Source of the DNA: Streptosporangium lutulentum
Lineage (GTDB): Bacteria > Actinomycetota > Actinomycetes > Streptosporangiales > Streptosporangiaceae
Direction: 5' to 3'
Assembly (NCBI RefSeq): GCF_030811455.1
Contig: NZ_JAUSQU010000001.1
Coordinates: 8,680,001 to 8,744,000 of the forward strand
DNA length: 64,000 nucleotides
This document shows positions 2,824 through 15,810 of the stretch, in pieces (position 1 is the stretch's first letter; every line of letters starts with the position of its first letter). The translations under genes and the position numbers were made by a program. The notes beneath the pieces were generated by a model. The model was not told the origin of the DNA, ran no database searches, and worked only from the letters and a program-made list of their open reading frames with translations.

Positions 2824-4404
2824 ATGTCAGATACCGCAGTCCTTGCCGGCACCGCGGTGGCGATCGTCGCCATCGTGGTGCTGATCGTTCGTTTCCGCGT
2901 GAACCCGGTGATCTCGCTGGTGCTCGGTTCGCTCTGCCTGGGACTGATGACCCCCCTCGGCCTGGGCAGGACCATCGAGACGATCACCAAGGGCTTCGGC
3001 GACATCATGGCCGAGGTCGGGCTTCTGATCGTCTTCGGCGTGCTGACGGGCGCGATACTGCAGGAGATGGGCGCCATCGAGCGGCTGGTCAACCGGCTGC
3101 TTCACGTCTTCGGCCCCAAACGGCTGCCGTACTCGATGTCGCTGGCCATCGGCACGCTGCTGCAGTCGATCTACCTGGACGTGCTGCTGGTGATCTCGGC
3201 CCCGTTGGCCAGATCCGCCGCGCGCCGGATCGGCCCGCTGGGCACGCCCCGGATGGCCGCCGCCATGGCCATCGGGCTCGAATGCGGCATCGTCCTCATG
3301 GTGCCGGGTGTCGGCACGCTGGCCCTGGCGGCGCTGCTGCACGTCCCGCTGGGCACGATGCTGCTCTGGGGGCTGGTACTGATCATCCCGACCGTCGTCA
3401 TCTCGGTTTCGATCATGACCTTCCTGTTCCGCCGGGGATTCTGGAACAGCGCCACCGACGAGGTCGCCGCCGTCGCCGAGGAGGCCACGGCGGAGACCCT
3501 GACCACCGTGCCGGCCACCCAGGGCGCGGGAACGGTCACCCAGACCGCGGGGACGACTGCCCAGGCCGCGGGGGCGGTCACGCAGACCACGGGGACGGCT
3601 GTCCAGGGCGCGGGGACGGTCACGCGGGCTGTGGAGGCGGCCACGCAGGCCGCGGGGACGGCGTGCCGGGCGTCCGCATGGCCGGGTGCCGCGCCGGTGA
3701 GCGGCCCGGACGTCACCGAAGGACGCGACTCCGACGACACGGCAGGCGGCGAGGCGAGTGGCCCCGGCCTGCTCGTGTGCTTCGCCCCGCTCCTCGTCGC
3801 GTTGCTGATGATCGCCGTCGGCGCCGTCACCGAGGCCGTGGGCGACAAGAGCGCGGTGCTGAAGTTTATCTCGAACCCGGTGTTCGCCATGCTGATCGGG
3901 CTCATCGGCACCTTGATCGTCGGCCGCGTCGTCGTGGGCGGGAAGCGGGTGGAGACAGCCATCGCCCACGGTTTCAGGGAGAGCGGTCAGATCCTCGCCC
4001 TGACCGCGGTCGGCGGCTCCCTGGCGGCGGTGGTCGCGGCCGGCGGCCTGGGCGACATCCTCCGCGGATACTTCACCGCCCACACCTTCCTGCCGCTGCT
4101 GCTGGTCTGGCTGGTCGCCGCGGCCCTGCACATAGCGGTCGGCTCGGTCACCATCTCGGCCATCACGGCGGCAGGCATCCTCGCCCCGGTCGCGCCCGCG
4201 CTCGGCCTCGACCCGGTGCTGATCGCACTCGCCGCGGGGACCGGCTCGCTGTTCGCCGTCCACGTCACCAGCAACACCTTCTGGCTGCTGCAGTCACTGC
4301 TGGGCCAGACCACCCGTGGCACGCTCAAGACCTGCACCCTCGCCGTTTCCGTGGCCTCGATCGTGGGCATCCTCCTGCTCCTGCCGCTCAGCCTGCTGTT
4401 CTGA
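2824..4404 (+). CDS. GntP-family organic acid/proton permease
   Basis: A 526-residue polytopic protein with roughly twelve hydrophobic segments. The ATG at 2824 is chosen because GAAGGA lies eight bases upstream and the hydrophobic N-terminus starts there. Family marks include the early ITKGFGDIMAEVGLLIVFG region and the C-terminal HVTSNTFWLL...TTRGTLKTCT, which matches the FWL...TLKTWT ending of gluconate permeases and relatives. These carry sugar acids or hydroxy acids in by proton symport. The large cytoplasmic loop (residues about 215-310) is unusual: it holds seven tandem heptads rich in Gln, Ala, Gly and Thr. Divergence from the CoA-transferase/lyase operon suggests it imports that operon's substrate. 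Not every GntP protein carries gluconate, so the substrate is left open. Confidence 0.85.
   Translation: MSDTAVLAGTAVAIVAIVVLIVRFRVNPVISLVLGSLCLGLMTPLGLGRTIETITKGFGDIMAEVGLLIVFGVLTGAILQEMGAIERLVNRLLHVFGPKRLPYSMSLAIGTLLQSIYLDVLLVISAPLARSAARRIGPLGTPRMAAAMAIGLECGIVLMVPGVGTLALAALLHVPLGTMLLWGLVLIIPTVVISVSIMTFLFRRGFWNSATDEVAAVAEEATAETLTTVPATQGAGTVTQTAGTTAQAAGAVTQTTGTAVQGAGTVTRAVEAATQAAGTACRASAWPGAAPVSGPDVTEGRDSDDTAGGEASGPGLLVCFAPLLVALLMIAVGAVTEAVGDKSAVLKFISNPVFAMLIGLIGTLIVGRVVVGGKRVETAIAHGFRESGQILALTAVGGSLAAVVAAGGLGDILRGYFTAHTFLPLLLVWLVAAALHIAVGSVTISAITAAGILAPVAPALGLDPVLIALAAGTGSLFAVHVTSNTFWLLQSLLGQTTRGTLKTCTLAVSVASIVGILLLLPLSLLF
3520..3666 (+). repeat. Seven tandem 21-bp repeats coding a heptad linker
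   Basis: Seven consecutive 21-bp units start at 3520, 3541, 3562, 3583, 3604, 3625 and 3646. They encode QGAGTVT, QTAGTTA, QAAGAVT, QTTGTAV, QGAGTVT, RAVEAAT and QAAGTAC (residues 233-281 of the permease). They sit in the central cytoplasmic loop, which is normally short in this family. Units 1 and 5 encode the same heptad, suggesting expansion by slippage or unequal crossover. Confidence 0.85.
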
Positions 4405-4508: not shown

Positions 4509-6209
4509 GTGGTGGAGTTTGATTCGAGCCGCCGGCTGACGGCGGCGGAGCGGCTGGTGTGCTGGACGGTGTCGCTGCTCGCCCCGGACCTGCGGAGTGT
4601 CGCGCAGGCGGAGCTACGGGCCGAGGGCCTCGATGTGATCGGACCGCCGGCCGTGACCGCGCCGACCGATGGACTCAGCGGGCGGTTGCGGTCCGCCGCC
4701 ACGGTGCTCGACGGTGATGCCGTCCTGTCCGAGATGAGGAAGGCGGACTGGGCGGTGCTGGCCGCCGAGCATCGGCGGGAGCCCTTTGGCCGCGTGCAGC
4801 GCCGTGCCCTGATCGCGCGGCCCGACTGCCCCGACGCGCTGACCACCGCCCTGCTCACACCGTGGGACTCCTTCGTGGCCGGCCGGCTGGTGGCCCGGGG
4901 GCGAGGAGTTCCGCGGTGGACGTGGCAGGCTGCCCTGGCCCGGATCGGTGAGGTGCGCCCCTCTTTCCTGCGCCAGGTGCTCTCGGATGAGACGGTGGAG
5001 GAAATGATCCTCACCACGCCGCGTCTGGACCTGCTGGTCCGGGCCGTCGACGGCTACGACCACAACCATCACCGGGAAACGCGGGCATTCTGGGAGTGCG
5101 TGGGAGGGCTGCTGCGGCGCCGTCTCGGCGCCGATCGGTCGGGCTGGACGGCAGCCGCCGCGGCGTTGCCGTCCCACCCGGGGACGTTCGCGAACCTGCT
5201 CCGCCGGATCGGGAAGACGCCGACCCCGGTGCCGGCGGAGCAGGCGGATCTGCGGATCCTGGCCCAGGCGCCCGATGCGGTGCTGGCCGAGGTGGTCGCG
5301 CACCTTCCCGACGTGCTGCTGACCCACATGGAAAGGCGTGACCTGCACCCGCGACGGACCCGAGAGCACCTCATCTCCATGGTCCTGGACCGGTTCGTCG
5401 CGGCCGGAATACCCCCTCGCGGGCTCTTCGCCCGATGGGTCTACTACACCGTGTGGCGCACGCCTGCGGCACGGTCGTGGGCGCATGGGCTGGATCCCCT
5501 GCTGGATGAGGCCAACAAGCGTTCCGCCGCGTACGACGTGACACTGCGTCGGCTGCTCGCGGCCGGCTCACCGCCTTCAGGAGCGGCATCGGACCTGGTC
5601 GGCGCACTTCGGGCGTGCACCGATCCGATCGAGAGCGAAGCGTTGCTGACATCCGTACTCGGTGAGAACGGTTCGCCCCCCTGGCGCGAACTCATCGACA
5701 CTCACCGCGATGCGGCATTGCCGCCGCATCTCCTGTGCACCCTGGCCGCCCGTGAGGGCTTCCCCGAAACACTCGCCCGGGCGCTACCCGCCGACCTGCT
5801 CCCCCTGCTGGCCGGTCAGAGCCCGGCGGCCGCGCGCGTCGCCGTGACCGCACCGCACCGCATCTACGACTCTCAGGGGCTTTTCCACCGAATCCGCGCC
5901 GCGCGAGTCGTCACCGACGAAGAACTGCCGGCGATGAGTCGCCCCGCCAGGGAAATCCTCCGGTACGCCTCCACGCTTCCCGCCCCCACGTCCTCGTCCT
6001 CGTCCGACGGCGAGCACGGCGATGACCTCATCGATCACTGCGCTCGGCTGTTCGACACGGCCGCGCGGTCGGCGCCTGCGGGGTTCTGGCCGGCACTGCT
6101 CAAGCTACTGCCGGCGTTCGAGGGCACGCTCCCGGAACTGCTCGACGCCGCTGCCGCACCTTCTCACCCGTCCCACGCGCAACGACCGGGCGACAACGCC
6201 GACGGCTGA
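4509..6209 (+). CDS. Hypothetical protein, predicted all-helical
   Basis: A 566-residue soluble protein that I do not recognise. It has no signal peptide or membrane segment. It is rich in Leu, Ala and Arg with many short amphipathic stretches, as in alpha-helical repeat proteins, and ends in an Ala/Ser/Pro-rich tail. The start is one of two consecutive GTG codons at 4509 and 4512 and has no strong ribosome-binding site, so the N-terminus is uncertain. Codon usage is normal for the genome. It stands alone between the permease gene and a secreted nuclease gene, about 105 bp downstream of the former. No function is proposed. Confidence 0.7.
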   Translation: MVEFDSSRRLTAAERLVCWTVSLLAPDLRSVAQAELRAEGLDVIGPPAVTAPTDGLSGRLRSAATVLDGDAVLSEMRKADWAVLAAEHRREPFGRVQRRALIARPDCPDALTTALLTPWDSFVAGRLVARGRGVPRWTWQAALARIGEVRPSFLRQVLSDETVEEMILTTPRLDLLVRAVDGYDHNHHRETRAFWECVGGLLRRRLGADRSGWTAAAAALPSHPGTFANLLRRIGKTPTPVPAEQADLRILAQAPDAVLAEVVAHLPDVLLTHMERRDLHPRRTREHLISMVLDRFVAAGIPPRGLFARWVYYTVWRTPAARSWAHGLDPLLDEANKRSAAYDVTLRRLLAAGSPPSGAASDLVGALRACTDPIESEALLTSVLGENGSPPWRELIDTHRDAALPPHLLCTLAAREGFPETLARALPADLLPLLAGQSPAAARVAVTAPHRIYDSQGLFHRIRAARVVTDEELPAMSRPAREILRYASTLPAPTSSSSSDGEHGDDLIDHCARLFDTAARSAPAGFWPALLKLLPAFEGTLPELLDAAAAPSHPSHAQRPGDNADG

Positions 6210-6222
6210 CGTACTTTCTGGA

Positions 6223-6262
6223 CGTTCGGATACGCCGGTCTGAAATCACCTGGATCCGAACG
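6223..6262. other. Inverted repeat after the hypothetical gene
   Basis: Nine-base arms CGTTCGGAT (6223-6231) and ATCCGAACG (6254-6262) flank a 22-base centre, 14 bp after the stop codon. It may be a weak terminator of the preceding gene or an operator; no U-tract follows. The rest of 6263-6445 shows nothing definite apart from the ribosome-binding site of the nuclease gene. Confidence 0.35.
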
Positions 6263-6445
6263 TGCGGGCCATCGCGTCCCGGTCGTTCATGTTTGTCAGC
6301 GATCAGTCCCACCACGTTGCCGAGCTGTAGCACGTTGTTCAGGTCCCGTCCGCGCGCAGTCAAAGATCGCGGCCTAAGGTCCCCTGTTGGCCCTGCTGCG
6401 ACACCAGGTCATAGCACGCCAGCGATCCATTTGGAGGTGCGGTCT

Positions 6446-9400
6446 TTGTCTGCGCCGCTTTTCCGGCGAGTCATCATCGCCGCTTTGACGCTGTCCACGG
6501 CAGGCGTCGCCTGCTCTTCATATGCCATTCCGGCGTCCGCCGACTCGACCGGGACCGGCCTGGTCATCAGCGAAGCGTACGTCAACGGAGGCTCGTCCGG
6601 CGCGAGCTACCTTAACAAATTCGTCGAACTCTACAACCCGACGCCGAACGCCATCTCCCTCACCGGCGACACCCTCCAGTACCGCGCGCCCACGAGCACC
6701 GGGGTCCCGGGCGGTTCGCAGGTGTTCGCGCTTTCGGGAACGGTCGCAGGCCATGGCCACCTCCTCATCCAGCTGCCGGGCAACAACGCGAGCACCAACC
6801 CCGGGGCACCGCTGCCGACACCCGATCTGAGCACCGGCGGGAGCGTCAACCCGGGCGCGGGGGGCGGCACGCTGTTCATCGCGGCCAGCACCTCGGGCGT
6901 GCTTCCCACCGACAGCACGGTGATCGACAAGATCGGCTGGGGAACCAGCAACTCTCCGGAGGCGAACGCTCCGACGGGCAACTCGCTGATTCTGAGCTAC
7001 CAGCGCGACGCGGCCGGCGCGGACACGGATGACAACGCCGCCGACTTCCACGTCGCCGCTCCGACCCCCCAGAACGCTGCCTCCGACGCCGGCAACCCAG
7101 GCGACGGCACCGGGACGATCACGATCACGGACCCCGGCTCGCAGAGCGCCACGTCCGGCACGGCGATCACACCGCTCACCCTGCGCGCCTCCGGCGGCAC
7201 CGCGCCGTACACCTGGACGGCGACCGGGCTGCCCGCCGGGCTGACGCTCTCCTCGGACGGTACCGTCTCGGGCACTCCCACCTCCGCCGGTACGGCGTCG
7301 GTGACGGTGACCGCCACCGACTCGACCGGCGCGACCGGCTCGGCGACCTTCAGGTTCCAGGTCGCCGGGGACGGTTCGACCATCGTCCCGATCGCGTCGA
7401 TCCAGGGCACGAACACCGACACCTCGCCGTACAAGGGGCAGACGGTGACGACCGAGGGTGTCGTGACCGCGGTCTACGCGACCGGCGGCTTCAACGGCTT
7501 CTTCCTCGAAACCGGCGGCGCCGGGAAGCACGACAAGACGCCTGGCGCTTCCGACGCGGTGTTCGTCTTCGGCGCGGGATCGGCCGGCCAGGTCTCGATC
7601 GGCGAGAGCGTCCGGGTGACCGGCGAGGTCACGGAGTACCAGGGCGAGACCGAGATCCAGTCCCCGACGGTGACCAAGCTCGCCAAGGCGCTGCCGGCCG
7701 TCGTCTCGGGCCAGATTCCGTGGTCGGACCTGACGACCGACGCCGCGAAGGAGGCGCACGAGGGTGAGCTGATCGCGCCGCAGGGCACCTTCACGGTGTC
7801 GGACAACTACGACGCGAACTACTACGGCTCCTTCACGCTGGCCGCGGGCGAGAAGCCGCTGCGCCAGCCGACCGACGCCGGAACCGCGGGAAGCGCCGCG
7901 GCGAAGGCCGCCGCGGCCGACAACGCCGCCCGGATGGTGACGCTCGACGACGGCTCCAGCGCGAACTACAGCACCAGCGCCTCCCGCGACATTCCGCTGC
8001 CGTGGCTGACGACGACCAACCCGGTCACGGTGGGCTCGAAGGTGACCTTCCACGAGCCGGTGATCCTCGAATACCGGTTCTCGCTGTGGAACTTCCAGCC
8101 GAGGCAGCAGGTCACCGACAACGGTGCGAAGGTCGCCACCTTCAGCGACCTCCGCACCGGCAACCAGCAGCCGGCCTCCGTCGGCGGCGGCGTCCGTCTG
8201 GCCACGTTCAACGTCGAGAACTACTTCCCCATGACCGGCGAGGACTACGTCGCCAAGGGACTGGGCAAGTGCACGTACTACACGGACCGGCAGGGCAACC
8301 GGATCGCGGTCAACACGTGCACCGGCACGGACGGCGGCTCCGGCCCGCGCGGCGCGGCCGACCAGGCCAACTTCGCCCGCCAGCAGTCGAAGATCGTCAC
8401 CGGTATCAACCGGCTCGGCGCGAGCGTCGTGTCGCTGGAGGAGATCGAGAACTCGGTCAAGTTCGGTGAGCCGCGCGACACCGCGCTGGCCGGCCTGGTC
8501 GACGCGCTCAACGCGGCCGCCGGCTCGAAGGTCTGGGCCTACGCGCCCTCGCCGTCCGCCGACAAGCTGCCGCCGCTGTCCCAGCAGGACGTCATCCGTA
8601 CCGCCTTCATCTACAAGCCGGCCGACGTCGCCCTGGTCGGACCGTCGACCGTGCTGACCGGCAGCTCCGGCCCCGGCCAGCCGTTCTCGATCGCCCGTCA
8701 GCCGCTGTCCCAGGGGTTCAAGAAGGCCGGCGCCACCGACAAGGACGCGTTCCTCGTCGTGGCCAACCACCTGAAGTCGAAGGGCGCCGGCACCCCGCTC
8801 TACGACGGCGACGCCGAGGACACCTCGTCCCCGGACGTCAACCAGGGCGCGTTCAACGCGACCCGGGTCCGCCAGGCGCAGGCCGTCTCCGCGTTCGCGT
8901 CGCAGACGGCGGCCGGCCTCGGCACCGACCGGATCTTCCTGCTCGGCGACTTCAACGCCTACACGCACGAGGACCCGATGCAGGTCCTGTACACCGACGG
9001 CTACACCGACCTGGGCAGCGCGTTCGACCCGTCGGAGGCGACGTACTCCTTCAACGGCCTGCAGGGCTCGCTCGACCACGTGCTGGCCAACCCCGCCGCG
9101 AAGGCGATGGTGACCGGCGCGGACGTGTGGCAGATCAACGCGCAGGAGGCCGGGGCCTACAACTACAGCCGCTACAACTACAACGCCACCCAGCTGTTCA
9201 ACGGCACCGACCCGTTCGCGGCCTCCGACCACGACCCGGTCATCGTCGGGCTGAACCTTCCGGCCACGCCGGTCACGCCCAGCGCGCCGGCCTGGAACGC
9301 CTCGAAGGTGTACAACACCGGTGACACGGTGACCTACCAGGGCTCGACCTGGCGGGCCATGTGGTGGACGCAGAACCAGAAGCCGGGCGACCCCAACGGC

Positions 9401-9571
9401 TCATGGGAGCAGATCGAGACCGCGGCCGACGGCACCGCCGTCTGGACCGCTTCCCGGGTCTTCAACACCGGCGACGTCGTCACGTACAAGAACAAGAAGT
9501 ACAAGGCACAGTGGTGGACCCGTAACCAGGTCCCCGGCCAGCCCTTCGGCCCCTGGCAGCCCGTCGACTGA
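6446..9571 (+). CDS. Large secreted multidomain nuclease (ExeM/NucH-like) with two chitin-binding-like domains
   Basis: TTG at 6446 is taken as start because GGAGGT lies seven bases upstream and a signal peptide follows (RR, hydrophobic core, cut near IPASADS); this gives 1041 residues. Domains in order: lamin-tail domain (about 33-175), Ig-like putative-interaction repeat (about 212-300, GLPAGLTLSSDGTVSGTPTS), an OB-fold region (about 310-420), and an endonuclease/exonuclease/phosphatase catalytic domain (about 580-930). The catalytic domain shows TFNVENY, SLEEIEN, NHLKSKG, LLGDFNAYT and SDHDPVI, which supply the metal and active-site residues. Two carbohydrate-binding repeats (about 945-1041) each have the aromatic pattern AW/VW...VYNTGD...W. 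It should degrade extracellular DNA while bound to chitin-like or cell-wall glycan. A strong terminator follows. Confidence 0.9.
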   Translation: MSAPLFRRVIIAALTLSTAGVACSSYAIPASADSTGTGLVISEAYVNGGSSGASYLNKFVELYNPTPNAISLTGDTLQYRAPTSTGVPGGSQVFALSGTVAGHGHLLIQLPGNNASTNPGAPLPTPDLSTGGSVNPGAGGGTLFIAASTSGVLPTDSTVIDKIGWGTSNSPEANAPTGNSLILSYQRDAAGADTDDNAADFHVAAPTPQNAASDAGNPGDGTGTITITDPGSQSATSGTAITPLTLRASGGTAPYTWTATGLPAGLTLSSDGTVSGTPTSAGTASVTVTATDSTGATGSATFRFQVAGDGSTIVPIASIQGTNTDTSPYKGQTVTTEGVVTAVYATGGFNGFFLETGGAGKHDKTPGASDAVFVFGAGSAGQVSIGESVRVTGEVTEYQGETEIQSPTVTKLAKALPAVVSGQIPWSDLTTDAAKEAHEGELIAPQGTFTVSDNYDANYYGSFTLAAGEKPLRQPTDAGTAGSAAAKAAAADNAARMVTLDDGSSANYSTSASRDIPLPWLTTTNPVTVGSKVTFHEPVILEYRFSLWNFQPRQQVTDNGAKVATFSDLRTGNQQPASVGGGVRLATFNVENYFPMTGEDYVAKGLGKCTYYTDRQGNRIAVNTCTGTDGGSGPRGAADQANFARQQSKIVTGINRLGASVVSLEEIENSVKFGEPRDTALAGLVDALNAAAGSKVWAYAPSPSADKLPPLSQQDVIRTAFIYKPADVALVGPSTVLTGSSGPGQPFSIARQPLSQGFKKAGATDKDAFLVVANHLKSKGAGTPLYDGDAEDTSSPDVNQGAFNATRVRQAQAVSAFASQTAAGLGTDRIFLLGDFNAYTHEDPMQVLYTDGYTDLGSAFDPSEATYSFNGLQGSLDHVLANPAAKAMVTGADVWQINAQEAGAYNYSRYNYNATQLFNGTDPFAASDHDPVIVGLNLPATPVTPSAPAWNASKVYNTGDTVTYQGSTWRAMWWTQNQKPGDPNGSWEQIETAADGTAVWTASRVFNTGDVVTYKNKKYKAQWWTRNQVPGQPFGPWQPVD

Positions 9572-9722: not shown

Positions 9723-10352
9723 TCAGGTCGTGGCGACGGCACGCGCGCCCTCGGTGGAGTGCGGCGCGGCCGCACCGCGGATATCCCGTCGAGCAACCGG
9801 GCGGTCCTTGCGGAAGTAGGCGCGGGCGGACGGGAGCAGGAGCAGGACGATGACCGCGATCGAGACCAGCGGCGTGAAGATGAGACGGCCGTCGGAGACG
9901 GCCGGCAGCCAGGCCGGGTAGGCGCGGTCGCCGGCGTCGAGGATGGCCTGGGCGTCGGCGCCGCTGCCGAGTATGGACTGGAGGTACGCCACCTTGGAGG
10001 TCTGGCTGATGAAGATGAAGACATCGAGGGCCAGGAAGATCGGCTGGATGATCAGGGTGAGGATCCGGCCGGAGCGCTTGCCCGCGAGGTTGCGCCAGGC
10101 CAGGATCGCGGCGATCACGGCGGTGCCGACGGGCAGCACCAGCGCGTAGCCGCCCTCGTCGAAGTGGAGGTTGTTCTCGGCCAGGAGAGAGGGCGACAGG
10201 CCCTGCCTGGCGAGCTCGGCCTCGGCCGCGGCTTGGACGTCGGCGCCGAAGATGAGCCCGGCGACCGGAGCGATCAGGAAGGCCAGGGCGAACAGCAGCT
10301 GGAGCATGCCGGCGACGGTGACGGTACGGGGGCGGGTCTTGGTGATTTCCAT
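9723..10352 (-). CDS. Hypothetical four-helix membrane protein
   Basis: A 209-residue protein with four predicted membrane helices at about residues 13-35, 68-85, 100-118 and 160-178. A 30-residue extracytoplasmic loop follows helix 1 and a basic, Ala-rich tail ends the protein. I do not recognise a named family. The start ATG at 10352 has no Shine-Dalgarno sequence. The predicted -10 element ends only six bases upstream, so the mRNA is probably leaderless. Its promoter carries the same heptad array as the DrrAB-type exporter promoter, which suggests control by the divergently encoded AfsR/SARP protein and a shared role with the exporter. Confidence 0.7.
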   Translation of the reverse strand: MEITKTRPRTVTVAGMLQLLFALAFLIAPVAGLIFGADVQAAAEAELARQGLSPSLLAENNLHFDEGGYALVLPVGTAVIAAILAWRNLAGKRSGRILTLIIQPIFLALDVFIFISQTSKVAYLQSILGSGADAQAILDAGDRAYPAWLPAVSDGRLIFTPLVSIAVIVLLLLPSARAYFRKDRPVARRDIRGAAAPHSTEGARAVATT

Positions 10353-10357
10353 GCCAC

Positions 10358-10423
10358 AGACGATCGCGCCCTCCGCTGACAGGGCGCTTCCACCGGGCTG
10401 ATCCGGGCTGATCCGCGCTGACA
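10358..10423 (-). promoter_or_regulatory. SARP-type operator array and promoter, membrane-protein side
   Basis: Five 7-bp direct repeats lie at 10375 (GCTGACA), 10386 (GCTTCCA), 10397 (GCTGATC), 10407 (GCTGATC) and 10417 (GCTGACA), spaced 11, 11, 10 and 10 bp. Read on the minus strand, the last repeat is followed by 10 bp and then ATCGTCT (10364-10358), a likely -10 region just before the ATG at 10352. Helically phased heptads next to a -10 box are the known layout of AfsR/SARP binding sites. The same arrangement recurs at 15328-15383. Confidence 0.7.
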
Positions 10424-10465
10424 GGGGCGGTGAGCCGTCAGCCGGGCGTCTGGGAAGCTGATCAG

Positions 10466-13400
10466 GTGCGAATTGTGGTGCTTGGTCCGGTCAAGGCATA
10501 TTCGGGAGACGCCGAACCCGTCGAGATCAGCGGTACGCGGTTGCGTATGCTGCTGGCCAGGCTCGTCATGGATCCGGGCCGCCCCGTTTCGGCCGAGACC
10601 CTGATCGACGACCTTTGGGGCGAGCAGGCACCCGCGGGAGCGGCCAGTGCGCTGCAGGGACTGGTGTCCCGGTTGCGCAAGGTCCTGCGTACGGCGGCGA
10701 CCTTGGACCTGGTGGCCGGCGGCTACCGGCTGTCGGTGAACGCCGAGGACGTGGACGCCTGCCAGTTCGAGGAGCTGGCCGCCCGAGGGCGGCGGGACCT
10801 GGCCGCGGGCAGGCACAAGGAGGCGGCCGCGACGCTCGGCGCGGCGCTCGGCCTGTGGCAGGGCGAGGCCCTGGCCGACGTGCTGGAAGCGCCGTTCGCC
10901 GACCACGTCGCCACCAGGCTGAACAACCTGCGCGCCGCGGCCGCCGAAGACCGCCTCGACGCCGAGCTGCACCTGGGCAGGCATGCCGAGGCGCTGACCG
11001 ACCTGGAGTCGTCGGCCGCCCGCAATCCGCTGAGCGAGCGGCTGGCCGGGCTGCGGATGCGCGCCCTGGCCGCGGCCGGCCGCCAGGGGGACGCCCTGGC
11101 GGTGTACGAGGAGATCCGGGGCAGACTCGGCGACGAGCTCGGCGTCGATCCCGCGCCCGCGTTGCAGGAGATCCACCTCGCGCTGCTGCGCGGCGAGATG
11201 GAGCGGCCCATGACCCGGGCGGAGGCCGCGCCGAGCCGCCTGCCCGCCCAGCTCACCAGTTTCGTGGGCAGGGAGGCGGAGCTGGCGCGGCTGGCCGGAC
11301 TGCTGTCCACCGGCCGCCTGGTCACCATCGTCGGCCCCGGCGGCGCGGGCAAGACCCGGCTGTCACTGGAGGCCGTGGCCAGGGATCCGGCCTACCGGCT
11401 CGGCCGCGTGTGGTTCGTCTCGCTGGCCGGCGTGAGCGTGCCCGACCAGCTCGCCGACGCGGTGCTGGGAGCACTCAAATCCTCCGACGGCCGCCTGTAC
11501 GAGGCCGGCAGGTCCGCGCCGCTCGACCGGGTGAGCGAGCTGCTCGACGTCGGCGACGCCGTACTGCTGCTGGACAACTGCGAGCACCTGGTGGAGGCCG
11601 CCGCCGAGCTGGCCGACCAGTTGCTGGTACGGCTGCCGCAGCTCAGGGTCCTCGCCACCAGCCGGGAACCGCTGGCGATCACCGGTGAGGCGCTGTGTCA
11701 CCTGGGTTCGCTGGAGGTGCCGAGAGACTCGGCGGAGGCGGCCGAGGCGGAGGCCGTACGCCTCTTCGTCGACAGGGCGGTGAGTGTCCGGCCGGGATTC
11801 GCTTTAGAGGAATCCACGGTCGAGGCCGTGGTGGAGATCTGCTGGCGGCTGGACGGCATGCCGCTGGCGCTGGAGCTGGCGGCGGCCAAGCTGCGCTCGA
11901 TGAGCGTGGACCAGATCGTCCGCCGCCTGGATGACCGGTTCCGGCTGCTCACCTCGGGCAGCAGGTCCGCGCTGCCGCGCCAGCGCACCCTTCTCGCGAT
12001 GGTCGAGTGGAGCTGGGACCTGCTGGAGGAGCCGGAACGAGCGCTGTCGAGGCGCCTGGCGGCCTTCCCCGGCGGGGCGACCCTGCCCGCGCTGGAAGCC
12101 GTCTGCCCTGATGCGTCGCTGCCGGCCGGCGACATCGTCTACGTGCTCGGTTCTCTGGTCGAGAAGTCCATCGTCCACCAGTCCGGCGACCGGTACCGGA
12201 TGCTGGAGACGATCCGCGCCTACGCGTCGGGCAGGCTCGCCGAGTCCGATGACGACATCGGCGGGCCGTTCTCCGGCTACTTCCTCGCACTGGCCGAGGA
12301 GCACGAGCCGCTGCTGCGGACCAGGGACCAGCTGGCGGCGATCGCCGTCTTCGACGCCGAGTACGACAACCTGGTGCACGCGCTGCGCCAGGCGGTGGAC
12401 GTCGGCGACGAGGCGACGGCCTCCCGGTTCGTCGGCGCGATGTTCTGGTACTGGGGCGTCAGCGGCATGAGCACCCAGTTCGAAACCTACCTCCGGTACG
12501 GCGGAGTGCTACCCGGGCAGGCCAGGGCGGCCTTCGGCGTGGTGAGGGCGAGCATGGACGCCGACTCGGCCGGCGCGCGGGAGTTCCATCCGGCCAGGCC
12601 GCTGATGCGGATGGCGCAGCTGGCCTTCCCCGCCGAGGAGTCCAGCCTGGAGGAGGCGCTGGCCTCGCCCGACCCCTGGGTGCGGGCCGGCGCGCACTGG
12701 GCCGAGGATTTCCTCCTGACCGAGCAGGGCGATCTGAGCTCCGGGGCCTCCTCCCGGGAGGCGGCACTGCGCGGCTTCGAGGAGGTAGGCGATCGCTGGG
12801 GCCTGGTGATCAGTCTGCTGCCGCTGGGCCGCGACCACTCCTTACGCGGCGAGTACGGCCAGGCCATCGCCACCTTCGAGCGTGCCGTGGCTCTCAGCTC
12901 CGAGCTGGGCGCCGAGGACTACCTCTACCTCAGCCGGGCCAGACTCGCCCGCGAACGCAGGCGCAGCGGCGACCTGGACGGCGCGCTGCGCGACATCCAG
13001 GCGGCGCACCGCCGGGCCAGGGAGCGTGGCCACCGCCGTATGGAGGTGAACATCCTGGTCGGCCTGGCCAACGTCCACCGCCTCTCCGGCGACCTGGTGC
13101 GGGCCGACCAGATCCTGGACGACCTGGAGGCCCTGGTCCAGCGCCGCGCCATCCCCGAAGAACTGGCCGGAGACCTGATCGTGAGCACCCGCCTGGAGAA
13201 CCGGCTCATGGAGGGCGACGCCGTGCAGGCAAGGAAGCTGATGCCGGACGCCGTCGGCTCCCTGATCACCCAGGGCTACAGCGCCGGCCTGGCCTGGGCC
13301 GCCGAACTGCTGGCCGGGTTGCGGGCGCTGGAGGACGACCCGTCGGGCGCGGCCACCGCGCTCGGCATGAGCCAGGTGATCCGCGGCGAGTTCGACCACG

Positions 13401-13543
13401 GCGAGCCCGAGCTGCGCGCCCTGGTCGAGCGGCTCACCGCGCGACTGGGTGAAGACGGCTACGCCCAGGCGTATCACCTGGGCGCGGAGACGCCGCGTAA
13501 GGACGCGATCGACCGGCTGGCCGGTCACGTCCTGGCGGGCTAG
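10466..13543 (+). CDS. AfsR/SARP-family transcriptional activator with NB-ARC ATPase and TPR region
   Basis: A 1025-residue large SARP. GTG at 10466 is chosen because the DNA-binding domain starts there (RIVVLGPVKAYSG) with GGAAG nine bases upstream. Domains: OmpR-type winged helix (about 1-85), bacterial transcriptional activation domain (about 90-240), NB-ARC-type ATPase from about 270 with P-loop GPGGAGKT (near 290) and Walker B VLLLDNCEH (near 366), then a TPR-like helical C-terminus. Large SARPs oligomerise with ATP and activate promoters bearing helically phased heptads. It is divergent from the membrane-protein gene and convergent with the exporter genes; its TAG interlocks with the permease stop across the palindrome CTAG. 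The two flanking promoters with heptad arrays are its probable targets. Confidence 0.9.
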   Translation: MRIVVLGPVKAYSGDAEPVEISGTRLRMLLARLVMDPGRPVSAETLIDDLWGEQAPAGAASALQGLVSRLRKVLRTAATLDLVAGGYRLSVNAEDVDACQFEELAARGRRDLAAGRHKEAAATLGAALGLWQGEALADVLEAPFADHVATRLNNLRAAAAEDRLDAELHLGRHAEALTDLESSAARNPLSERLAGLRMRALAAAGRQGDALAVYEEIRGRLGDELGVDPAPALQEIHLALLRGEMERPMTRAEAAPSRLPAQLTSFVGREAELARLAGLLSTGRLVTIVGPGGAGKTRLSLEAVARDPAYRLGRVWFVSLAGVSVPDQLADAVLGALKSSDGRLYEAGRSAPLDRVSELLDVGDAVLLLDNCEHLVEAAAELADQLLVRLPQLRVLATSREPLAITGEALCHLGSLEVPRDSAEAAEAEAVRLFVDRAVSVRPGFALEESTVEAVVEICWRLDGMPLALELAAAKLRSMSVDQIVRRLDDRFRLLTSGSRSALPRQRTLLAMVEWSWDLLEEPERALSRRLAAFPGGATLPALEAVCPDASLPAGDIVYVLGSLVEKSIVHQSGDRYRMLETIRAYASGRLAESDDDIGGPFSGYFLALAEEHEPLLRTRDQLAAIAVFDAEYDNLVHALRQAVDVGDEATASRFVGAMFWYWGVSGMSTQFETYLRYGGVLPGQARAAFGVVRASMDADSAGAREFHPARPLMRMAQLAFPAEESSLEEALASPDPWVRAGAHWAEDFLLTEQGDLSSGASSREAALRGFEEVGDRWGLVISLLPLGRDHSLRGEYGQAIATFERAVALSSELGAEDYLYLSRARLARERRRSGDLDGALRDIQAAHRRARERGHRRMEVNILVGLANVHRLSGDLVRADQILDDLEALVQRRAIPEELAGDLIVSTRLENRLMEGDAVQARKLMPDAVGSLITQGYSAGLAWAAELLAGLRALEDDPSGAATALGMSQVIRGEFDHGEPELRALVERLTARLGEDGYAQAYHLGAETPRKDAIDRLAGHVLAG

Positions 13544-14340
13544 GCGGCGTTCTTGCGGTAGGCCCGCATGGCCAGGGGGAAGAAGATCACGATCGCACCG
13601 GCCATCCAGGCCAGGCCGCCCAGCAGAGGCCCGGCGACCGCGCCGCCGTTCAGCAGACCGCGCATGGCGTCGGACATCAGGCTGACCGGGTTGACGTCGG
13701 ACCAGACCCGCAGCCAGCCGGGCATGGTCTGGGTCGGGATGAACACATTGCTGGCGAAGGTGAGCGGCAGGATCAGGATGGTCGTCAGGCCGGTCACCGA
13801 CCCGGGCGTCTTGACCAGCATGCCGATGTAGACCGACAGCCAGGAGAAGCTCAGCCCGAAGGCCAGCAGCAGCCCCACACCCGCCAGAGCGGCGACCGGG
13901 CCGGTCTGGATGCGATAGCCCATGACCACCGCCAGGCCCAGGAGGACGGCCAGCGACACCACGTAACGCACGAGGTCGGCCAGTACGGCGCCGATCAGCG
14001 GCGCGGAGCGCGCGACCGGCATGCTGCGGAAGCGGTCGAAGACCCCGGTGCTCGTGTCGGCGTTGAGCGAGACGCCGATGCCGACACTGGCCTGCAAGAC
14101 CGTCATCACCATGATGCCGGGCACGATCGCCTGCACGTAGCCGTCGAGGTCGCCGCCCGCGATCGCGCCGCCGAACAGGTAGACGAACATCAGCAGGAAC
14201 ACCACCGGCGTCAGGATGACGTCCACGAGCTGCACGGGGGACTTGCGCAGCTTGGCGACACCGCGTCCGGCCAGGGCCAGGCTGTGTCGGACGGCCTGCG
14301 CAGGGCTCACCTGGATCGGGGCGAAACCGGTCGTGCTCAT
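13540..14340 (-). CDS. ABC-2 type permease, DrrB-like
   Basis: A 266-residue integral membrane protein with six predicted helices and the ABC-2 signature region (the VNPVSLMSDAMRGLLNGG stretch near residue 225). It is the membrane half of a daunorubicin-resistance-type exporter. Its ATG overlaps the stop codon of the upstream ATPase gene (ATGA, 14340-14337), so the pair is translationally coupled. Its own stop overlaps the SARP gene stop. DrrAB-type exporters remove hydrophobic drugs or lipids; the cargo is not visible here. Confidence 0.9.
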   Translation of the reverse strand: MSTTGFAPIQVSPAQAVRHSLALAGRGVAKLRKSPVQLVDVILTPVVFLLMFVYLFGGAIAGGDLDGYVQAIVPGIMVMTVLQASVGIGVSLNADTSTGVFDRFRSMPVARSAPLIGAVLADLVRYVVSLAVLLGLAVVMGYRIQTGPVAALAGVGLLLAFGLSFSWLSVYIGMLVKTPGSVTGLTTILILPLTFASNVFIPTQTMPGWLRVWSDVNPVSLMSDAMRGLLNGGAVAGPLLGGLAWMAGAIVIFFPLAMRAYRKNAA

Positions 14341-15290
14341 GCTGCGTTCCTCTCGGTGGCGGCGTTGTGTCCGGTGAGCGCCAGGAAGACCTCGTCCAGG
14401 CTGGGCAGGCGCAGGCCCAGCTCGTCGGTGGGGATGCCGGACAGGTCGAGTCTTCTGGCCAGGGCGGAGACCAGCAGGGGATCGGCGGCCGGCGCACTCA
14501 GCAGGCCGGTGTTCTCATCGCGGTTCGGTGTGCTGCCGGTGAGCTCGGCCAGGATGCGGCCGACCGCGTCCATGTCGGTGGCCAGGGTCGGGCGTACGTG
14601 CATGATCTGCCCGCCGATCTGGCGCTTCAGCTCGCCCGGCCGCCCTTCGGCGACCACCTTGCCGCGGTCGATCACGGTGATCCGGTCGGCGAGCTGGTCG
14701 GCCTCCTCCAGGTACTGCGTGGTGAGCAGGACCGTGGTGCCATCGGACACCAGGGCGCGCACCACGTCCCAGAGCCCGTTGCGGGTGTGCGGGTCCAGGC
14801 CGGTGGTCGGCTCGTCCAGGAACAGGATCCGTGGACGTCCGACCAGGCTCGCCGCCAGGTCCAGCCTGCGCCGCATGCCGCCGGAGAAGCTGCTGATCGG
14901 CCGGCCGGCGGCTTCGGTGAGCTCGAAGCGCTCCAGCAGTTCGGCGGCCCGCGCCTTGGCCTCACGCTTGGACAGGTTGAGCAGGCGGCCCAGCAGGATC
15001 AAATTCTCGAGGCCGGACAGGCCCTCGTCCACCGAGGCGTACTGCCCGGTGAGGCCGATGAGGCCGCGTACCCGCACCGGGTCCCGCACCACGTCGTGGC
15101 CGCCGACCACGGCCCGGCCGCCGTCGGGCCGCATCAGTGTCGCCAGGATCCGCACGGCGGTGGTCTTGCCGGCCCCGTTCGGTCCGAGCACCGCCACCAC
15201 CCTGCCCGCCTGGACCTCCAGATCGACCCCGTCCAGCGCAACCATGTCGCCGTACCGTTTGACCAGCCCTTCGGCTCGAATCGCTTCCAT
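14337..15290 (-). CDS. ABC transporter ATP-binding protein, DrrA-like
   Basis: A 317-residue ATPase. The ATG at 15290 is chosen because AGGAGAGG lies just upstream and the domain begins there (MEAIRAEGLVKRYGD). It shows Walker A GPNGAGKTT, signature SSFSGGMRRRLDLA, Walker B ILFLDEPTTGLDP, and the drug-exporter C-terminal extension ending in SLDEVFLALTGH, which is typical of DrrA. First gene of a two-gene operon with the permease. The predicted start of transcription is about 30 bp upstream, directly below a SARP-type heptad array. Confidence 0.93.
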   Translation of the reverse strand: MEAIRAEGLVKRYGDMVALDGVDLEVQAGRVVAVLGPNGAGKTTAVRILATLMRPDGGRAVVGGHDVVRDPVRVRGLIGLTGQYASVDEGLSGLENLILLGRLLNLSKREAKARAAELLERFELTEAAGRPISSFSGGMRRRLDLAASLVGRPRILFLDEPTTGLDPHTRNGLWDVVRALVSDGTTVLLTTQYLEEADQLADRITVIDRGKVVAEGRPGELKRQIGGQIMHVRPTLATDMDAVGRILAELTGSTPNRDENTGLLSAPAADPLLVSALARRLDLSGIPTDELGLRLPSLDEVFLALTGHNAATERNAA

Positions 15291-15327
15291 AGCCTCTCCT
15301 CGTCGCCCTTGTCGCTCCCGATGGGGA

Positions 15328-15383
15328 AGACGATGCCGGAGGCCGCTGACACGTGGCTCACAGCGCGCTAACACCGGCTGACA
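15328..15383 (-). promoter_or_regulatory. SARP-type operator array and promoter, exporter operon
   Basis: Four direct repeats lie at 15345 (GCTGACA), 15356 (GCTCACA), 15367 (GCTAACA) and 15377 (GCTGACA), spaced 11, 11 and 10 bp. On the minus strand the last repeat is followed by exactly 10 bp and then ATCGTCT (15334-15328), identical in sequence and spacing to the element at 10358-10423. The ATPase start codon is 38 bp further on. Confidence 0.72.
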
Positions 15384-15462: not shown

Positions 15463-15810
15463 ATGTCAGTACGTCGAATCGTCCCCAACATTGAGTCCGA
15501 AGCCCTGGAGGAGAGCGCGGAGTTCTACGGCCTCCTGGGCCTGGAGGAGGTCATGAACCACGGCTGGATCATGACCCTCGCCTCTCCGTCCGCTCCCACG
15601 GTGCAGGTCAGCGTCATGACCGGCGACAAGACGGCACCCGTCACCTCGGACATGAGCATCGAGGTGGATGATGTGGACGCCGCCTATGCGGCCATGTGCG
15701 ACAGCGGTGCCGAGATCGTGCATCCGTTGCAGGACGAGGAGTGGGGCGTCCGCCGGTTCTTCGTCCGCGACCCGAACGGCCGTGTGGTCAACGTCCTGGG
15801 GCACCGCTGA
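15463..15810 (+). CDS. VOC-superfamily (glyoxalase/bleomycin-resistance-like) protein
   Basis: A 115-residue single VOC module. The ATG at 15463 has GGAGGAG about nine bases upstream, and the fold starts at once (VRRIVPNIESEALEESAEFY). The C-terminal half shows the typical FFVRDPNGRVVNVLGH ending with the family's metal-ligand region. Single-module VOC proteins act as dimers, sequestering or modifying small molecules. It is divergent from the exporter operon and may share its heptad-array region, so a role in the same resistance response is plausible but unproven. Confidence 0.8.
   Translation: MSVRRIVPNIESEALEESAEFYGLLGLEEVMNHGWIMTLASPSAPTVQVSVMTGDKTAPVTSDMSIEVDDVDAAYAAMCDSGAEIVHPLQDEEWGVRRFFVRDPNGRVVNVLGHR

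Follow-up and report, generated by a model that had tools for sequence, protein, structure and literature searches.

The 64,000-nt stretch of Streptosporangium lutulentum DNA analyzed here (the window) contains the gene for a large SARP (Streptomyces antibiotic regulatory protein) of putative STAND type (signal transduction ATPases with numerous domains), together with a convergent drrAB exporter operon and a divergent gene for a small four-transmembrane (4-TM) protein. The locus very probably constitutes a small activator regulon, in which the SARP is predicted to activate drrAB from a leadered promoter and the 4-TM gene from a leaderless one. A SARP regulon had been proposed in an earlier sequence-only reading of the stretch and was supported by the present analysis, in which an array of phased heptads found upstream of both target genes recurred at drrA beside related SARPs and at 4-TM promoters, but not at SARP promoters.

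Two phased heptad arrays in the window

Read on the plus strand, array 1, at the 4-TM gene, comprises GCTGACA (10375), GCTTCCA (10386), GCTGATC (10397), GCTGATC (10407) and GCTGACA (10417) in steps of 11, 11, 10 and 10 bp, the three middle heptads being weak (5/7 matches each), and array 2, at drrA, comprises GCTGACA (15345), GCTCACA (15356), GCTAACA (15367) and GCTGACA (15377) in steps of 11, 11 and 10 bp. AGACGAT is present at 10358–10364 and 15328–15334, in both cases 10 nt from the first GCTGACA. Direct reading thus confirmed two features described earlier from sequence alone, namely four or five phased GCTGACA-like heptads at both promoters and, at each, a perfect gene-proximal GCTGACA followed after 10 bp by ATCGTCT on the minus strand. 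The layout agrees with that of SARP promoters, described in the excerpt available of PMC10936776 as repeats 11 or 22 bp apart and 8 bp from the −10 element, with 9 nt separating TGTCAGC from the −10-like hexamer in the window (8 nt if the repeat is extended by one base 3'). No good −35 element was apparent at the array promoters by eye, no promoter scan having been made. The drrA ATG (15290) lies 61 nt from the proximal heptad start, with a predicted transcription start at about 15323 and a leader of about 33 nt containing GAGGAGAGG, and the 4-TM ATG (10352) lies 29 nt from the proximal heptad start, so placed relative to its −10-like hexamer (Table 1) that the gene is predicted to be leaderless.

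Table 1. Genes and predicted promoter elements of the SARP locus (window positions).
Feature	Position	Strand	Description
Large SARP	10466..13543	+	1025 aa, GTG start; OmpR-type DNA-binding domain, BTAD, STAND-like ATPase and TPR-like C-terminal half
DrrB-type ABC-2 permease	13540..14340	-	Pfam ABC2_membrane, 1.8e-26
DrrA-type ABC ATPase	14337..15290	-	Leads exporter operon; TIGR01188 drrA, 348.9 bits (above cut-off 312.45)
Small 4-TM membrane protein	9723..10352	-	209 aa; divergent from SARP; predicted leaderless
Predicted SARP operator, 4-TM gene	10375..10423	-	Five heptads; proximal TGTCAGC perfect
Predicted SARP operator, drrAB	15345..15383	-	TGTCAGC, TGTGAGC, TGTTAGC, TGTCAGC going away from drrA
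-10-like hexamer GATCGT, 4-TM gene	10360..10365	-	9 nt past proximal heptad; 7 nt ahead of ATG
-10-like hexamer CATCGT, drrA	15330..15335	-	9 nt past proximal heptad

A weight matrix was trained on 20 drrA promoters from foreign genomes, with the window left out and locus L075 entered in a shifted register. On the 64-kb window its two best independent sites were the array at drrA, with a score of 39.8, and that at the 4-TM gene, with 26.3; the next unrelated site scored 6.8, and the maxima across 20 control regions reached up to 13.4. In 21.2 million strand-bases of first-order Markov sequence, two sites scored at least 20, one at least 23 and none 26.3 or more. The drrA promoters of 22 more distant loci gave scores of 8.3–33.3; as these loci had been preselected by consensus score, this indicates consistency and is no independent proof.

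The arrays are also rare. The exact composite AGACGAT-N10-GCTGACA occurred twice in the 10,639,158-base genome, both times at the locus, and the four-heptad phased pattern with up to three mismatches was found twice in the window (against none in 100 shuffles) and twice in the whole genome, again only at the locus, a stricter flexible array pattern recovering the drrA array only. With up to two mismatches, the composite gave 70 genome matches against 12 for its reversed pattern, so that loose matches are uninformative. The view that the agreement between the two promoters is unlikely by chance was borne out by the shuffles and by the presence of only two such arrays in the whole genome, and the genome-wide search for the exact composite gave no random scatter. 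Among 200 genomes of the family, the exact composite was present in five, the host genome included, and the six foreign matches had no array around them (best matrix scores −1.4 to 12.8, at background), so the exact letters are not conserved and the composite was rejected as a family-wide marker. What is conserved is the pattern captured by the matrix, and it is in this form that the element recurs in the related genomes in which a search had been proposed.

Conservation of the array at drrA

SARP relatives were represented by the best 80 of at least 582 candidate loci from a scan of named genomes. In 43 of these 80 loci the 4 kb downstream of the SARP contained a convergent drrA, accompanied by drrB in 42, and the SARP–drrAB layout occurred in Nonomuraea, Actinomadura, Streptomyces, Streptosporangium and Amycolatopsis; in the Planotetraspora locus (L058) the permease match lay further off. 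Upstream of drrA, the relatives showed phased TGTCAGC/TGTCCGC/TGTCAGC followed by CATCGT, CAGAGT, CAGTGT or CACTGT, the hexamer of L070 being CACTGT, which is given as the −10 element of afsS in the excerpt of PMC10936776. When arrays were ranked by a simple consensus score, 42 of the best 80 loci had their top array no more than 200 nt upstream of drrA, as did 20 of the 29 among them with a SARP identity of at least 50%. The best array was on the opposite strand, adjoining the drrA array, in L069, and at another gene in L076 (a P450 gene, start uncertain), L077, L078 and L134.

The 4-TM gene and its promoter in relatives

Matches to the 4-TM protein at E ≤ 1e-10 were obtained in 56 of 297 genomes of the order, from which 20 regions were taken, eight at ≥64% identity and 12 more distant. 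Apart from L264 (~5737–7003), a truncated 4-TM remnant that overlaps the remnant of a SARP and comes from the genome that also carries the intact pair L257, seven intact relatives at ≥64% identity with open frames of 182–204 aa were available. All seven carried the array with an ATG 29 nt from the start of the last heptad in a search that allowed 28–30 nt, and the unconstrained matrix maxima coincided, lying 29 nt plus a multiple of three ahead of the aligned first residue; matrix scores ranged from 14.4 to 24.9. Six of the seven adjoined a SARP (59–71% SARP identity), in divergent (L258, L260, L261, L263), co-directional (L259) or convergent (L257) orientation. As the array stays with the 4-TM gene in all three layouts, it follows this gene. 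The prediction that the 4-TM gene is leaderless was thereby supported, by the 29-nt distance in 7/7 relatives and by 19 of a further 38 arrays at SARP loci, where the distance is 28 or 29 nt (see below).

The 12 distant homologues (L265–L276) had no array (promoter matrix scores −9.6 to 0.3). Several of them showed TTGAACTTAGTTCAA-like upstream sequences and TetR-like neighbor genes, labeled by reading the sequence. As the distant homologues lack the array and several stand beside TetR-like genes, the 4-TM family seems to be controlled by a SARP here and by a regulator of another kind elsewhere.

One of the six SARP-adjacent relatives, L263, had the full set of 4-TM gene, SARP, drrB and drrA and was the only one with drrAB in its 15 kb, drrAB being represented in L260 just by a DrrA-like match of 54 residues where the stretch ends. 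Conversely, none of the best 80 SARP loci had a 4-TM match at E ≤ 1e-4. The 4-TM gene was therefore rejected as part of a conserved DrrAB neighborhood, on the counts of 0/80 and 1/6. The earlier proposal that the heptads tie the 4-TM protein to the exporter stood as far as the shared SARP-type arrays are concerned, but the tie is to the SARP, with drrAB beside only one of six relatives.

Blind search for arrays and other candidate targets

To find arrays irrespective of the regulator, three GCTGACA heptads at 11 bp with up to two mismatches were searched in 394 genomes of the class, no SARP being used. This gave 42 places in 34 genomes, against six for the reversed pattern. Leaving out one overlapping place and the window drrA array, 40 regions were examined along with 20 control regions 100 kb away. 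A SARP domain was present in 15/40 blind regions and 0/20 controls. In the array direction, drrAB was found in 13 of the 40 regions, a FAD-monooxygenase-like gene in one (L207, by sequence resemblance) and MMPL-like genes in four. Pfam confirmed the MMPL assignment in two of these four, and the 6–12 kb examined at the four loci contained no SARP. These matches are not independent, as genus g103 provided 14 of the 40 regions, eight of the 13 drrAB cases and all four MMPL cases. The MMPL loci – L180, L184, L185 (array ~6001–6029) and L188 (~2412–2440) – all belong to one genus and share a conserved array of phased TGTCAGC heptads; three of the four have an ATG 28 nt from the proximal heptad start. 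The MMPL genes are perhaps a SARP target in trans or the target of another regulator.

In 38 of the best 80 SARP loci the best array was not at drrA. Half of these, 19, had the ATG of an open reading frame of at least 80 aa at a distance of 28 or 29 nt from where the proximal heptad starts, compared with a chance level of 503 in 64,000 random positions. Pfam analysis of eight of the 19 genes gave three MFS, two FAD-binding, two AAT (acyl-CoA:6-APA acyltransferase family) and one beta-lactamase family protein, and five drrA genes likewise start at 29 nt, one of them with GTG. Genes of these four families thereby share the layout at more distant SARPs. Among 20 SARP paralogue regions of the host genome, the 28- or 29-nt ATG spacing was seen twice, for an MFS gene in L277 and for a FAD-binding gene in L279; these cases are weaker because their array scores of 15–17 were reached by other regions too.

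Residue 89 and the first heptad base

The residue aligned to AfsR residue 89 was counted against the first heptad base in 88 rows, rows with an array score below 16 or fewer than 200 residues having been dropped. Leu was paired with T-first heptads in 121 of 150 heptads, Val with T in 10 of 12 and Gln with G-first heptads in 54 of 72, the exceptions L207 and L279 having Gln with two T of three. This residue would face the first heptad base. On the tree, six changes of Leu were counted and 10 of the heptad base, and the well supported branches gave one independent contrast; since the trait is clustered on the tree, the pairing is a hypothesis and not a result.

Genes of the locus

The N-terminal part of the SARP matched Pfam BTAD (6e-39) and Trans_reg_C (8.5e-8), both above cut-off, which gives it the N-terminal domains of a large SARP; an alternative in-frame GTG upstream, at 10430, is a possible start. 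The ATPase part matched AAA_16 at cut-off (1.4e-7) and AAA_22 slightly above it, with NB-ARC (3.4e-4, 20.4 bits) below the Pfam cut-off of 23.5, and the TPR part was seen through NCBIfam matches alone (HaaT, FxSxx_TPR), far below cut-off. Against the NCBIfam AfsR equivalog NF053617 the protein scored 201.8 bits (cut-off 1430) and is therefore not AfsR proper; the closest solved structures by sequence were those of AfsR (8k60, 8jke, 8hvr) and EmbR (2fez). A gene cluster in the same genome (G000:C1:6655000-6669000; L025, L027, L028, L042) matched the central ATPase part of the SARP and not its DNA-binding part. The permease fell below the cut-offs of the DrrB families TIGR00025 (2.1e-23, 83.1 bits; cut-off 146.9) and TIGR01247 (73.3 bits; cut-off 223.05).

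The 4-TM protein had no Pfam or NCBIfam match at E ≤ 0.001. An AlphaFold2 model built from 46 sequences (mean pLDDT 88.5) showed four long helices and had no match in the PDB at E ≤ 0.001, so the structure yields no function; among 59 related proteins, source names, where present, were hypothetical or uncharacterized. Divergent from drrA is a glyoxalase/bleomycin-resistance-like gene (15463–15810, plus strand) with no array in its own direction (score 3.0), and the region 6293–9571 (plus strand) encodes a large protein with lamin-tail, Ig-like and endonuclease/exonuclease/phosphatase parts and two CBM5/12 stretches.

Proposed mechanism and alternative explanations

In the proposed mechanism, the SARP, with its STAND-type ATPase and TPR-like domains, would be kept inactive until a signal arrives. 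Once activated, it would occupy the phased TGTCAGC heptads next to one another along a single DNA face, upstream of the weak −10 elements CATCGT and GATCGT, and recruit RNA polymerase to two minus-strand promoters in the fashion of AfsR. The first promoter would drive the DrrAB-type exporter, with its short predicted leader, and the second the 4-TM membrane protein from its predicted leaderless start, the exporter presumably removing a toxic compound. Activation by polymerase recruitment is the natural reading because the geometry and the −10 type resemble those of AfsR/afsS.

Several observations weigh against this interpretation. Three of the 22 distant drrA promoters (8.3, 9.8 and 11.6) scored below the control maximum, and the 4-TM promoters of L259–L261 were weak (14.4–16.4, with L259 at 14.4) against the same maximum of 13.4. 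Four loci with a SARP identity of 52–65% (L068, L080, L082 and L094) had no array above simulation in the sequence examined, their scores of 15–16 being matched by simulated maxima of 15–18 in 40 runs. In L262 the array is retained at the 4-TM gene in a 15-kb stretch that has no SARP for about 7 kb around, so that the SARP would have to act in trans, and 22 of the 40 blind matches face no drrAB, FAD-monooxygenase-like or MMPL-like gene. The arrays could be bound by another of the numerous SARPs of the genome, in which 40 matches at E ≤ 0.001 were counted, some being pieces of one gene. A mixture of 10- and 11-bp steps is less common, although PimR is able to bind at both.

OmpR-type response regulators also bind phased direct repeats, and the arrays could be bound by another regulator of 11-bp repeats, PhoP-, GlnR- or MtrA-like or another SARP, with the adjacent SARP a bystander. 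PhoP competes with AfsR at the afsS promoter according to the excerpt of PMC10972967, the genome is rich in SARPs, and in the stretches examined of L262 and the four MMPL loci the arrays stand without a SARP. We nevertheless consider this unlikely, as two such arrays in 10.6 Mb are unlike a global regulon, arrays are linked to related SARPs across genera and SARPs accompany 15/40 blind array matches against 0/20 controls; the heptad type also tracks the recognition-helix type of the SARP, with the clustering on the tree noted above. It is very unlikely that the SARP represses both promoters until released by a signal, as in a TetR–exporter pair. The TetR-like genes and palindrome-like upstream sequences at several distant 4-TM homologues (by reading the sequence) would fit such a repressor, and the medium SARP Atr32 acts negatively (PMC10972967, in the part available), but the 9-nt gap between the arrays and a weak −10 matches the arrangement for activation by AfsR in the excerpt of PMC10936776, and by eye, with no promoter scan made, no good −35 is apparent.

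By the matrix, SARP promoters were without an array (window −3.2; six 4-TM loci −9.4 to 3.9; 29 relatives ≤4.7), and on these scores the SARP is not autoregulated through these sites. The least probable alternative is that array 1 acts in SARP autoregulation instead of serving the 4-TM gene: it occupies the intergenic region shared by the divergent pair, at 43–91 bp on the upstream side of the SARP start, and one blind match (L202, ~3885–3913) faces a SARP-like gene at 211 nt, but the heptads and −10 of array 1 are directed at the 4-TM gene, SARP promoters score at background and in the non-divergent L257 and L259 the array remains at the 4-TM gene. L202 itself may be an autoregulated SARP, unlike the window locus. 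Activation of drrAB and the 4-TM gene by the adjacent SARP is thus retained as the preferred interpretation.

Wider significance

Descriptions of SARPs center on their activation of antibiotic biosynthesis, and the large SARP here appears as a local exporter switch rather than such an activator. It is conceivable, and held with slightly less than even confidence, that large STAND-type SARPs are widespread stand-alone activator switches for detoxification, defined by GTCAGC-core heptads at a fixed distance, one adjacent effector and a residue-89 heptad code. The effectors would then be a DrrAB or MFS exporter, a FAD monooxygenase, an acyltransferase- or beta-lactamase-like enzyme or the 4-TM protein, and perhaps MMPL in trans; starts would often be leaderless, and the first heptad base would be read by a single recognition-helix residue, a code allowing targets of uncharacterized SARPs to be predicted. 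The signature of phased heptads, weak −10 and fixed ATG distance is precise enough for blind locus finding. It gives a first functional handle on a 4-TM family otherwise called hypothetical or uncharacterized, and a route to what large STAND-type SARPs sense, through the compound that induces the neighboring exporter.

Phased heptads, SARP control of drrAB (by DnrI, from a title only) and leaderless genes in streptomycetes are already known, leaderless genes making up 22.2% in S. avermitilis according to the excerpt of PMC8780764. In a search of open-access papers, none of those listed was recognized as dealing with a class of stand-alone large SARPs with exporters or with the TGTCAGC heptad, and the conserved SARP–exporter module, the 4-TM target and the fixed-distance signature were not recognized in the literature searched.

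Comparison with known systems

In TetR–exporter pairs a one-gene sensor stands beside an exporter, as the SARP does in the window, but the sensor there is a repressor on a palindrome and the SARP is a predicted activator on phased direct repeats. For SARP control of drrAB there is a precedent, by title only, in DnrI, which is said to bind drrAB and drrC in Streptomyces peucetius (the title being that of Prija et al. 2017). DnrI, of the daunorubicin cluster, is a small SARP, whereas the window has a large STAND-type SARP convergent to a two-gene exporter. PimR, of the SARP-LAL type, binds three heptads with 4-nt spacers and a secondary operator with a 3-nt spacer in the excerpt of PMC5930380, and thus shares both 11- and 10-bp steps with the window arrays, but its consensus there is CGGCAAG, with pimM as single target and a different C-terminal half. 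AfsR/afsS of Streptomyces coelicolor is similar in having a large SARP with NOD and TPR parts, for which the window SARP has putative counterparts, and whose solved structures are the closest to the window SARP, and 11-bp direct repeats beside a weak −10. It differs in its repeat, given as two copies of CGTT(T/C)ATCGNN in the part of the source available, compared with four or five copies of the TGTCAGC heptad in the window, and in that the window SARP would target the adjacent exporter.

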